This document shows positions 2,408 to 62,693 of a stretch of DNA of 64,000 bases, piece after piece (within the stretch, counting starts at the first letter, position 1; every line of letters starts with the position of its first letter). Location: NCBI GenBank assembly GCA_012932865.1, contig SAXG01000014.1, forward strand, positions 890,740 through 954,739, written 5' to 3'. The notes under the pieces were generated by a model. That model saw nothing but the letters and a program-made list of their open reading frames with translations, was not told the DNA's origin and made no database searches. Source of the stretch: Amylostereum areolatum. Its lineage: Eukaryota; Basidiomycota; Agaricomycetes; Russulales; Stereaceae. Position numbers and translations under genes: made by a program.

Positions 2408-2944
2408 CTAGTCCAAGTCGATCTCAGCGTGCGGGGTGACCTCGGGAGCGCGAGCCTTGTATTGCCTGTGAATGCCCCCACGTCATCTCGATGAGCGTCT
2501 GGCGAGGGTCGAAGGCGCAGGAACGGTTACTTAGAGGGCTTAGGCTTGTAGTCGGGCGTGGCCTCGGGGGAACGAGCCTTGTAATGCCTGCAAACAGTCA
2601 GATGGAGGTGAGCGTCTCCGTACGACGCAGACGGAGGAGGCAGCGGCGTCGGGTGTCGGGCTTACTTGGAGGGCTTGGGGTACCAGTCGGGCGTGGCCTC
2701 GGCGTCGCGGGCCTTGTAGTGTCTAGAGGTAGACACAAACATAGAGTGGTCAGCGTGATCGAGAGTGCGCATATATAGAGGGTTACTTGGACGGCTTCGG
2801 GAACTTGAAGTCGGGGTCGTCCTGCCGCTTTCCGACGGGTTCAGCGCGGACGATCTTGGCCTGCTTGAGCTCGCGGGTGGGGACCGCGAGGGCGGTCGCG
2901 GCGAGGGAGACGAAGAGGGCGAGCAGGATGCGAGAGGAGTACAT
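2408..2944 (-). CDS. Small secreted peptide precursor with repeats encoded by duplicated exons
   Basis: Four exons (2944-2787, 2722-2666, 2587-2531, 2465-2408) give 109 aa. The first about 20 residues are a hydrophobic signal peptide (MYSSRILLALFVSLAATALA). A short pro-region ends in Lys-Arg at residues 39-40, a Kex2-type site. The rest is a row of about 19-residue repeats: a shortened first one ending PKPSK, then HYKARDAEATPDWYPKPSK, then a second ending DYKPKPSK, then a divergent last one ending EIDLD. Exons 2 and 3 are both exactly 57 bp, and all three introns (64, 78, 65 bp) split the same AA|G or AA|A lysine codon in phase 2, so each exon is one repeat. No cysteine and no CAAX box, so it is not an ordinary basidiomycete pheromone. 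Its role is unknown. A Kex2-processed peptide or small effector is an inference. The splicing is strongly supported by the repeat register. Confidence 0.82.
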
Positions 2945-3867
2945 GGTAGCTCGGGGGGATGGGCGGAAGCTAGGTGTAGTAGCTGAGGAAAGTTGGAGCG
3001 GTCCCTGGCGTGGTTTATATGGAAGTAGTTGACGCCTGGGCTAGTCAGCACGGTGGATAATTGGGGGAGGGGAGGAGATGGTATGGCTATAAAGTCAGTA
3101 TGAAGAGCACGGATGGGGGTTCGACGGGCGAAAGGAAGGCCTTCCTGAGGCGTTGGCCGTCCACGGTGAGCGCCGGCGTCTGCGCAATTGCCTCCGCAGA
3201 TGCCGAACGGTGCTGGGGGGAAATACGCCGTCGAGGCGGAGATATGTCTGTTTACGACCAGAGGTGGAGCCGGGGGCTGGCGGATTCGGGGCGGTGTCGA
3301 GTAAAGATTGGACAGGAGAATCATCGGGGGTGACGGAATCAGAGAGCGTGGCTGGATGGCCGGCGTCGAGTGCCTTGAGATAGACGACGGTCCCGGCGCT
3401 GGACGTGAACGTTGGACAGTCAGAAAGCAGCTTATCGGAAGCATAACCGTGACCGAGCTCAACCGGGCTCAGAAGTCCTGTCAATGGGAGCTGCACGACT
3501 CGGAGCAGGAGACGGATTCGAGGGTGACAGTGACCGCCTGTGTGACCCAGAACGCGGTCTGCAGACCCTCGGCGTTCTCTTCTCCTGGACCAGCATATCA
3601 GAGTTCGACCAGAGTTGCACGGCGAGAAGTGCGTTCTCTGTTCTACCAGTACCGATTGGAGATGCGTTGAGCAAAGAGGTTGAACGAACGAACGCGACGC
3701 GGACGATTCCTGACGCAAACGCAGACGCGTCGGGCGTCATAAACAGCAGTCAACAACCGCCTCTTGCTCTCTCCCTCACACTTGGACCAACTAAGTACTC
3801 TGACAAGCACTCCACCTTCAAAACGCCCCAGCGCGCGCACTTGTCTTCCTAATTCCCTCGCGCTCAC
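2945..3867. other. Intergenic, divergent promoters
   Basis: Lies between the minus-strand peptide gene and SF3B4. Apart from the TATA box at 3014-3019 and a plus-strand TATAAAG at about 3088, I see no gene. Open frames here have no family resemblance and overlap on both strands. Confidence 0.5.
3014..3019 (-). promoter_or_regulatory. TATA box of the repeat-peptide gene
   Basis: The minus strand reads TATAAA 70 bp upstream of the ATG at 2944. It is followed by a CT-rich stretch, the usual layout of a strongly expressed fungal gene. Confidence 0.6.
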
Positions 3868-5204
3868 ATGTCAAGACCGCAGGATGACAGAAATCAGGAG
3901 GCCACCGTCTATCTGGCGCGTCCTTTCTCTATTCCACCTCCAACGCGTCTCTAACCTTTCCCATCCGGCGTAGGGAAACCTCGATGAGCGGTGTTCGGAT
4001 GCACTCGTATGGGAGCTCATGCTGCAGGCCGGCCCTGTCGGTACGTAACCCTTCGCCTTCAGCCTGGTCGTCTGGTTCAATTGTCGCCGCAACAGTGAAC
4101 GTCCACCTGCCCAAGGACCGGATCTCCATGGCCCACCAAGGCTACGGTTTCTGCGAGTTTCTGACAGAAGACGACGCGGAGTATGCCTGTAAGATCATGA
4201 ACCAAATAAAACTCTGGGGAAAGCCGATAAGAGTTAACAAGGTTCGTTCACAGCATCCTCGTCTGCCTCGCGCACAATCCCCGTCCCCATCCACCTCTCT
4301 CGGCCTCCTTTCGGAACCGCTTTCTTCCCTCCCCCTCGTAATTTTGTATGTATGCTGACGCAATAATTATCCTGTGTTTTTCTTTGCAGGCCTCTTCGGA
4401 TAAGAAGCAACTCGACGTCGGCGCGAACCTGTTCATCGGCAGTCTGGACGAAAACGTGGACGAACGACTGCTCTACGACACCTTCAGCGCGTTCGGCGTG
4501 ATGGCCACCACCGCCAAGGTGTGTGTCTCTATCTCACTCCACACCCACATGTCCCCCCCCCTTCTCCCTACCCCCTACGCTTCTCTCGCCCCCCTCCGTC
4601 CACCCATCCCCTGACGCCCAACCCCCAGATCGCGCGCGACCCCCAATCCGGCCAGTCCAAAGGCTACGGCTTCGTCTCCTACACCGACTTCGAATCCTCC
4701 GACGCCGCCGTCGAGTCCATGAACGGCCAGTTCCTCATGAACAAGGCCATCACCGTCCAGTACGCCTTCAAAAAGGACGGCAAGGGCGAGCGCCACGGCA
4801 CCCCCGCCGAGCGCCTCCTCGCCGCCCAGGCCCGGAAAAACAACGCCCTCCCCGCCGCCGCCCGCCCGCCGCCCGCCCCCGTCGCCTTCGGCGCCCGCCC
4901 GCCGATGCCCGGATACCCCCAGGCGCCGTACCAGGGCCAGTTCGCGGGCGCGCTCGCGCAGCCCCCGCCCCCGCCCGGGTTTACGCCGCAGCAGGCGGGC
5001 GGGATGGGCATGCCGCCGCCGCCGCCGCCGCCGCAGATGATGATGATGGGGATGCCGATGGGGATGCCGATGCAGGGCATGCCGCCCCCGCCTGGCATGC
5101 CCATGTTCAACCCCGCGCAGGGCGGCTACCCGCCGCCGCCGCCGCCGGGGTTCACGCCTCAGGGGATGCCTATGATGCAGACCCCCCCGCCGTTCATGGG
5201 GTGA
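3868..5204 (+). CDS. SF3B4: Splicing factor 3B subunit 4 (U2 snRNP protein Hsh49/SAP49)
   Basis: Five exons (3868-3915, 3974-4040, 4096-4241, 4390-4518, 4629-5204) give 321 aa. There are two RRM domains. The first has GYGFCEF as RNP1 and the second has LFIGSLD as RNP2 and GYGFVSY as RNP1. The segment [20 protein letters not shown] between them and the [18 protein letters not shown] end of RRM2 match the SF3B4 family closely. The tail is rich in proline, glycine and methionine, as in the human protein. SF3B4 is part of the SF3b complex that holds U2 snRNP at the branch site; it binds pre-mRNA near the branch point in the nucleus. The first intron (3916-3973) has no GT donor that keeps frame and RNP2; a GC donor gives the family-perfect join VYL-GNLDE. 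Confidence 0.95.
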
Positions 5205-5742: not shown

Positions 5743-7297
5743 TCACGGCGGCTCATCTTCGGCCGTCGCGAGGTGCAGGGCGTGCTCGACCCGTGCGTCG
5801 AAGTGGAGGAATTGGAGGAACAAGGCGTCGAGCGTGCGCTTGCCACACCTGAACTCGGCCCGTAGGGCGTGATGGACGACCTCGTCCAGATGTCGAGGAT
5901 CTTCAGCATCACCTAGGGCATGGTGAGTAACGGTGGAGAGGGACTGGAGCACAGGTTCGCTGAGCACTGCGGCCGCGCGCTCGAGAATGGCATCGCAGAC
6001 CGCTTGAGTTGTCTGCCAAGGACGAAGCAAAAAGCACGTATAACCGAGGTTAGAGATGTGGGCCAGGGATCGGATGTAAATACGCACGGGGTGCTCGCTG
6101 ATGCCCTCCCATTCATCAGGCGTCATCCGGCGCCAAGTCCACAGACGCGCGGAGGGGACGCGCTCGTAGCGGCCGAGATACTCAACTTCGTCCTCATCGT
6201 GCCCCACAAAAAGTTGAAACGGCTGGCCGGGGAGTGGCACGTCCGCATCGACTTCGTGCGTAGGTATGGCTCTCGACGTGTAGGGAGGAGGCTGCAAAGC
6301 CGGGAAAAAATACCCGTGCTCGCCTGCGCGGAGGTGCAGAAGCGGCTCGAAAGCTTCTTGGACGGGGTGTTGTAGACGCAGATGGCGATGTGCGACGCCG
6401 CGAGGGTTGATGAAGTCGCCATGGAGCTGACCGTCCAACACAAAGGCCGGCGTCAGTACCACACACGGTTCCTGTAGACGAGGACAAGAAATAAAAAAAG
6501 ACGGGAAAAGCCGCGGAGTCAAGACGCGGCGATGAGAGCGGAAGGGAACACGGGTACCGGAGTGGTCTGTGCTGCGCGTTGGACTGCAGAATGGGGGTAT
6601 ATGCGCGTTGGAGTCGGCGGTTGGACGAGGGTGTTGAGCGCGTTTAGTCGGCACGCCAACTCGTGCCGACGGAAAAGATCAATGGGTGGAAGGCGGCCTT
6701 GTACTTGAGGGTGCCAATGTAAAGGCGGATGGGTACTGGAGCCGGACACAAAGTATGGCCCCAGGTTGACATCTTGGTCCAGGACGTTATGGTTGATTAC
6801 GATAGCGGTGTGACGCTCCCAAGAAATGACCAGACGGGCCACGCAGCGCCTGGTGTCCCCTGATGGGGTAGTATAGCTTGGCCATGTGCAAACAGTCCTA
6901 GATGCCAGCCTTCGAAGTAGAAACGTATTAGACAGCACAGAAATGGAGTGTGGAGAGGTGGCGTCGTAAGCTATGTGAGGGGCGAAAAACCGGAGTTCAT
7001 GGCCGAGGGTGTCAAGAGCATATAAGCGGCCGTCATAAGCGTACTGAAGACGTTGGGCATCGGTCGAGTCGTCGGGTAGCTGAGGCACGGCAGGCGCATA
7101 ACCAAATATGTTGCCCAGTCGAAAGCAATCGCTGTCGGCAACGTCCTGGCCAAAAAAAGTCTTGAGCCCACAGTACCAAAAAGGGTATGAATACGTACCG
7201 TATCAATCAGGGAGCAGACGATCAAACAAGTGATCTCCGGAGGCAGTTGGAAGTTTGGAAAGAGCGCGGGGTTGGGGTGCGCGGCGAGGGTGGTCAT
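5743..7297 (-). CDS. F-box-like protein of unknown function
   Basis: Three exons (7297-7199, 7145-6558, 6471-5743; introns 53 and 86 bp, all in phase 0) give 471 aa. The start has LPPEITCLIVCSLID at about residues 18-32, the helix signature with which many basidiomycete F-box-like proteins begin. After it there is no repeat domain that I recognise; the long remainder is Leu/His/Pro-rich without membrane segments or a signal peptide. F-box proteins bind Skp1 and recruit targets to SCF ubiquitin ligases, but here only the short N-terminal motif supports this. An upstream ATG at about 7468 is open in the same frame, but the start at 7297 puts the F-box-like motif in its usual position. It shares its promoter with EMC4. 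Confidence 0.7.
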
Positions 7298-62400: not shown

Positions 62401-62465
62401 ACGAGGGCGGCGGACGAGGGCGGCGGACGAGGGCGGCGGACGAGGGCGGCGGACGAGGGCGGCGG
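62401..62465. repeat. 13-bp minisatellite
   Basis: Five perfect tandem copies of ACGAGGGCGGCGG, followed by degenerate copies (ACGAGGGTGG, ACGAGGATGG) to about 62600. Confidence 0.9.
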
Positions 62466-62693
62466 ACGAGGGTGGACGAGGATGGAAGCGGGCGGGCGGC
62501 GGATGAGGGTGGAAGCAGGCAGCGGACGAGGGCGGAAGCAGGCAGCAGACAAGGGTGGAAACCAAGGGCGGCGGGGAGCGAACGTAGCGGCGGGAGATGA
62601 GGGCGGAGGACGAGGGCAGGGGACGAGGGTGGGGAAGGGAAAGGACGGGGGTGGATGGAGGACGACAGAAAGTTGGTACGTGGCCATGTATCC

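Follow-up and report, generated by a model that had tools for sequence, protein, structure and literature searches.

A predicted secreted peptide precursor of Amylostereum areolatum with introns in register with its repeats

The peptide gene and its predicted product

The window analysed here is a 64,000-nucleotide stretch of the Amylostereum areolatum genome (contig SAXG01000014.1, positions 890,740 to 954,739), and all positions below refer to it unless another contig is named. A sequence-derived model places a gene of four exons and three introns on the minus strand at 2944-2408, with the ATG at 2944 and the stop codon ending at 2408 (Table 1). The joined coding sequence of 330 nt encodes 109 amino acids plus the stop. 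All three introns are of the GT-AG type and of phase 2, each falling within a lysine codon (AA/A or AA/G), and exons 2 and 3 are exactly 57 bp long, both as described by an earlier interpretation made from the DNA letters (hereafter the sequence-only reading). A 23-nt run of almost pure G (2262-2284) lies directly downstream of the stop codon.

Table 1. Features of the peptide gene (positions in the window)
Feature	Position	Strand	Description	Basis
Exon 1	2787..2944	-	158 nt; residues 1-20, with ALA at their end, resemble a signal peptide; leader at 21-40 terminating in Lys-Arg; then the first core QDDPDFKFPKPSK	model; A. chailletii protein aligned over 1-53
Intron 1	2723..2786	-	64 nt, GTAACC...CTCTAG, phase 2	model
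Exon 2	2666..2722	-	57 nt; unit HYKAR-DAEATPDWYPKPSK	model; A. chailletii protein alignment
Intron 2	2588..2665	-	78 nt, GTAAGC...TTGCAG, phase 2	model
Exon 3	2531..2587	-	57 nt; unit HYKAR-SPEATPDYKPKPSK	model; A. chailletii protein alignment
Intron 3	2466..2530	-	65 nt, GTAACC...TCACAG, phase 2	model
Exon 4	2408..2465	-	58 nt with stop; unit QYKAR-APEVTPHAEIDLD	model; A. chailletii protein alignment
Likely promoter and 5' leader	2945..3040	-	leader rich in pyrimidines; CCATATAAACC roughly 75 nt upstream; A at position -3 relative to the ATG	by eye

As read from the translation, the 109-residue product begins with a hydrophobic stretch ending at residue 20 with ALA at -3 to -1, and K39-R40 is its sole dibasic site, in agreement with the signal peptide and single Lys-Arg proposed previously. 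The chain that follows Lys-Arg comprises 69 residues with a computed pI of 8.8 and no cysteine. Units 2-4 carry the motif H/Q-YKAR, and units 1-3 carry PKPSK; the full pattern, which the sequence-only reading ascribed to all four peptides, is thus found in two of the four (units 2 and 3), as unit 1 has Lys-Arg instead of YKAR and unit 4 is without PKPSK. The presumed internal sites are monobasic (Tyr-Lys-Ala-Arg, ending at residues 58, 77 and 96), and the 19-residue unit originally put forward is better described as xYKAR followed by a core of 13-14 residues. Overall, the product has the appearance of a precursor for several secreted peptides, composed of a putative signal peptide, a leader ending in Lys-Arg and four related units.

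Probable growth of the repeat by exon duplication

Exons 2 and 3 are identical at 44 of 57 bases, a score reached by none of 20,000 shuffles of exon 3, and the identity extends to 45 of 58 when one additional acceptor base is included. Nine of the 18 codons compared between units 2 and 3 differ (five synonymous and four nonsynonymous changes), with 3, 2 and 7 base changes at codon positions 1, 2 and 3 respectively, and the motif is retained. The three introns occupy one register of the 57-nt unit, an arrangement that independent placement of the second and third would produce with a chance of 1 in 3,249, and their donors are alike (GTAACC, GTAAGC and GTAACC). Similar exons separated by introns of one phase at one position of the unit are a hallmark of exon duplication, and the recurrence of the same codon, the same phase and similar donors three times speaks for joint copying of exon and intron; the precursor very probably grew by tandem duplication of this exon-plus-intron unit. 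The shared register and phase thereby support the exon-wise growth that the sequence-only reading had proposed. A further mark of exon duplication, similarity of the introns themselves, was not found: for the three pairs of intron bodies 134, 490 and 43 of 1000 shuffles scored as high, indicating no clear likeness. This is expected for an old event and lends the duplication no support, and it implies that the duplication is old or that the introns have since been overwritten or have drifted. The dissimilar intron bodies would also suit a history in which the repeat is an older coding sequence and each unit subsequently acquired its intron at the same position, as would those of a second precursor in this genome (described below), for which three of 15 intron pairs fall at or below 15 of 500 shuffles. 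Such a history would, however, need three hits at one place, in the same codon and phase and with donors alike, and the likeness between small fungal introns should fade fast in any case; we consider it very improbable.

Relatives, copy number and genomic neighbours

A search of a large protein set (28 candidates) returned one match at E <= 10, the hypothetical protein P0001 of Amylostereum chailletii, the comparison being with the protein and not with its gene. This protein also has 109 residues, differs from the A. areolatum product at two of them (I6V and H103R) and aligns across all three exon junctions; since its length is maintained through all three joins, its annotators must have arrived at an identical spliced product. 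The sequence-only reading had named the existence of a related gene in a close genome as a test of its proposal, and this protein represents such a gene. Both products contain four units, and hence no change in copy number is seen in the one comparison available.

The peptide gene was detected at one place in the A. areolatum assembly (182 contigs, 57,130,172 bases): at E <= 0.001 the only matches were its own four exon pieces, with no paralogue among them, and within this search the gene is single-copy. Four additional matches to the repeat part, recovered in a search at E <= 10 (27-33% identity, E 1.6-5.2), were rejected as chance. The sole Pfam match, DUF6030, scored 13.2 bits against a cut-off of 26.7 and was discarded, as was the one match from a PDB sequence search (E 0.61). 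By sequence comparison the gene is an orphan, restricted to Amylostereum as far as searched.

To the right of the peptide gene lie an SF3B4 gene (3868-5201, plus strand) and a gene encoding a DUF6697 domain (5746-7297, minus strand). Of 5638 candidates for the DUF6697 protein, a single relative reached E <= 1e-5, again a protein of A. chailletii, and the two differ at one of 431 residues. The SF3B4 protein shows no substitution relative to its A. chailletii counterpart and a single one-residue indel. The first intron of the SF3B4 gene appears to begin with GC (GCGCGT) rather than GT, because the A. chailletii protein continues across this junction without interruption. By these alignments the two Amylostereum genomes have diverged very little, and an almost unchanged peptide gene is therefore weak evidence of constraint. 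A faster rate of change in the peptide than in its neighbours (2 of 109 residues versus 1 of 751 in the DUF6697 and SF3B4 proteins together; Fisher p 0.044) was considered and dismissed as a post hoc comparison too weak to interpret. The A. chailletii counterparts are divided between two contigs, with the peptide gene on one of 116,520 bases and the SF3B4 and DUF6697 genes together on another of 25,706 bases; the assembly may be broken between them, or the peptide gene may have another location in that genome.

Predicted processing of the precursor

We lean slightly towards a precursor that functions in the manner of a Kex2-processed repeat protein (KEP) and releases separate peptides. The signal peptide would be removed after ALA20 and Kex2 would cleave after Lys39-Arg40, followed by less efficient cleavage after each Tyr-Lys-Ala-Arg (residues 58, 77 and 96) by Kex2 or another protease that cuts at monobasic sites. 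A Ste13-type dipeptidyl aminopeptidase may then trim X-Ala and X-Pro pairs from the new N-termini (DA-EA-TP and SP-EA-TP in the second and third units; AP only in the last, where EV would block). The predicted products are short, linear peptides rich in lysine and proline and without cysteine, which the fungus might secrete as signals or to interact with other organisms.

Several features of the units argue for this scheme. The Lys-Arg of unit 1 aligns with the Ala-Arg of units 2-4, and YKAR is followed by D/S/A, then A/P, then E. Acidic and small residues are over-represented at P1' and P2' of the known Kex2 substrates described in PMC2515848, and the residues predicted to occupy these positions after YKAR fit that preference. 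Eight of the nine pairs behind YKAR (DA-EA-TP, SP-EA-TP and AP-EV-TP) are XA or XP; DAEATP and SPEATP match an STE13 signature at all three pairs and APEVTP at two of three, but alanine and proline make up 20 of the 69 residues and the units are copies of one another. XA/XP signatures are described for Basidiomycota KEPs (PMC6339444), and cleavage after a single arginine together with removal of XA/XP pairs is reported for Agaricomycete KEPs made in Pichia (PMC9769878). The sequence-only reading had regarded KAR and PSK as spacers; the absence of Lys-Arg between the repeats holds, but K-A-R sits where unit 1 has Lys-Arg, and a role as a weak processing site is therefore more probable than one as a spacer. 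Against release of separate peptides stand the presence of only one dibasic site, a last unit in which both PKPSK and the second XA pair are broken, and the residues of the presumed internal sites themselves: as described in PMC8528282, Kex2 favours lysine at P2, followed by arginine, threonine, proline, glutamate and isoleucine, and leucine or another aliphatic residue at P4, whereas YKAR would present alanine and tyrosine at these positions. The genome has matches to the kexin P domain (contig C161) and to DPPIV_N, the Ste13-type family, the latter in three adjacent pieces on contig C117 that resemble one gene; both families are near-universal and have little bearing on this particular substrate.

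The same observations can be accommodated by one small, secreted, disordered protein in which Kex2 trims the leader only, at Lys-Arg, and the remaining 69 residues stay intact. The single dibasic site, the basic, cysteine-free character of that chain and the poor match of YKAR to published Kex2 preferences all agree with this, and processing of a pro-domain type is described for fungal effectors (PMC8528282). Yet a chain that is never cut there would not be expected to have YKAR in register with the Lys-Arg of unit 1, nor XA/XP pairs directly behind it, and we regard an intact product as doubtful. Similarly doubtful is the function that would go with it, in which a repetitive basic and proline-rich chain acts, for example, at the cell wall or a partner surface, and duplication has lengthened the repeat region instead of raising the number of peptides. 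Release of separate peptides remains our preferred reading.

Comparison with known precursors

KEPs are numerous in fungi and few have known functions, according to PMC6339444, PMC7329392 and PMC9769878. The window gene resembles the Agaricomycete KEPs with STE13 signatures described in these papers in having a signal-peptide-like start, short repeats and a Lys-Arg before the first unit, as well as XA/XP pairs behind the presumed cut sites and a small, linear product with no cysteine. At least three similar repeats are present (H/Q-YKAR in units 2-4, PKPSK in units 1-3). The pipeline published in PMC6339444 requires repeats separated by KR, RR or KK, whereas the separators here are Tyr-Lys-Ala-Arg and the single dibasic site, K39-R40, precedes the first unit; since its repeat separators are not dibasic, the gene is classed as KEP-like and not as a KEP, and the published pipeline would miss it. 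Unlike KEPs as described, the gene also has each repeat as its own exon. The main texts of PMC6339444 and PMC7329392 contain neither the word intron nor exon, and that of PMC9769878 has one mention of an intron-less cDNA and none of exons. More generally, searches of the open PMC literature gave no report of introns in register with KEP repeats, and the passages covered there do not treat how KEP repeats multiply. The known C. cinerea KEP peptide gave no match in the A. areolatum genome, in a search run without a positive control.

With the precursors of UstYa-dependent, dikaritin-type RiPPs the product shares predicted secretion and imperfect tandem repeats. The genome has at least 31 matches to UstYa (PF11807, DUF3328), none of which is on the contig of the window gene among the matches listed, and assignment as a dikaritin precursor was rejected on this ground. 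We also found no tailoring enzyme among the 20 open frames compared with Pfam, a partial sample consisting of 10 of the 22 listed in the 20 kb left of the window (two matched: Ras, and ribonuclease III with Dicer dimerisation) and 10 of the 18 listed in window positions 1-26000 (two matched: homeodomain-like/DDE, and eRF1 domain 1).

Ascomycete alpha-factor precursors consist of a leader and repeated peptides with Kex2 and Ste13 type sites, a layout that the window gene is predicted to share. Alpha-factor precursors with sites of these types are also described in PMC6339444. In contrast to them, the window gene belongs to a basidiomycete and its peptide is unrelated; no STE2 match was found in the A. 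areolatum genome, nor in the control genomes, so that the search does not establish absence of the receptor. A basidiomycete lipopeptide pheromone was likewise rejected: the product ends in EIDLD and has no cysteine in residues 21-109, so there is no CAAX box, confirming the sequence-only reading on this point.

A second predicted precursor with introns in register

A repeat scan of 18 stretches totalling 173,000 bases (14 around UstYa matches, two left of the window and two at the kexin P domain and DPPIV_N matches) identified a second repeat precursor on contig C128 (741707-742832, minus strand), at a single locus. Its predicted model, with exons joined by eye at GT-AG sites, comprises seven exons and encodes 260 residues, including 20 units of approximately 11 residues delimited by 18 Lys-Arg sites. 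All six introns (53-60 nt) are of phase 1 and split the Asp/Glu codon before a unit's Gly, and the internal exons of 168, 69, 102, 135 and 135 nt, all of which exceed a multiple of 33 by 3, hold two to five units apiece; independent placement would yield this register with a chance of about 3 in 10^8. As for the window gene, the intron bodies are mostly unlike. UstYa matches lie 5.6 and 7.1 kb from the gene.

The two genes have in common a small, putatively secreted repeat precursor with all introns at the same place of the repeat. They differ in that the C128 precursor has shorter units, numerous Lys-Arg sites, several units per exon and UstYa nearby, and their sequences are unrelated. The sequence-only reading had set dikaritin-type precursors apart as holding their repeats within one exon, a distinction that the C128 gene, with six in-register introns close to UstYa matches, does not bear out: repeats locked to introns therefore occur outside the window gene as well, and dikaritin-type precursors are not necessarily single-exon. 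Judging from the two gene models, exon-wise growth occurs in two unrelated precursors of this genome. The repeat scan is no census of such precursors, because its filter drops PKPSK as low-complexity and misses the window gene itself; applied to the window and compared with shuffles, it gave three other places and not the peptide gene, an outcome that weighs neither way on the gene. At the far end of the window (62407-62568, plus strand) is a tandem array of a short DNA unit (about 26 bases), read as AADEGGGRGRR in shifting frames.

Splicing and wider implications

Exons 2 and 3 are symmetric (phase 2-2), such that virtual skipping of exon 2, exon 3 or both stays in frame, and virtual retention of intron 1, 2 or 3 would yield Lys-stop exactly where a unit ends, giving products of 53, 72 and 91 residues that each end in PKPSK. 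These clean ends, together with the three in-frame skipping forms, could be taken to mean that splicing sets peptide number, with transcripts carrying one, two, three or four units; in the C128 gene, intron retention would instead add 2 to 18 foreign residues. The Lys-stop, however, stems from one shared GTAA donor type in phase 2 that was inherited by the copies, and therefore counts as one event and not as three observations. A role of splicing in setting peptide number accordingly seems highly improbable.

An exon for each repeat is an unusual design for a known kind of fungal gene. That two unrelated precursors keep their introns in step with the repeat suggests exon-plus-intron duplication as a route by which precursors grow, on the basis of two genes in one genome, and the intron register offers a simple handle for finding precursors with non-dibasic sites. 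A more far-reaching proposal is that in-register introns are general in mushroom-forming fungi as a means of enlarging or trimming secreted precursors, exon and intron forming a cassette that is gained or lost irrespective of monobasic or dibasic sites, and that splicing sets the peptides made per transcript here; we consider this combination improbable. Were the general reading true, KEP surveys based on dibasic sites would miss monobasic members. Amylostereum areolatum is a wood-rotting symbiont of the woodwasp Sirex noctilio, making the peptide a candidate signal in this partnership.

STE3 and UstYa matches elsewhere in the genome

At least 151 matches to STE3 pieces, the pieces being exons, are spread over many contigs, with rows of several genes on contigs C13, C107, C95 and C151; by these matches STE3 forms a large receptor family in this genome. 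The closest STE3 match on the contig of the peptide gene is 776 kb away, among the matches listed. In several contig pairs (C48/C153, C118/C144, C18/C155, C13/C170 and C10/C151) both members have UstYa or STE3 matches with identical or almost identical scores, a pattern suggesting that the assembly partly retains the two haplotypes of a dikaryon.
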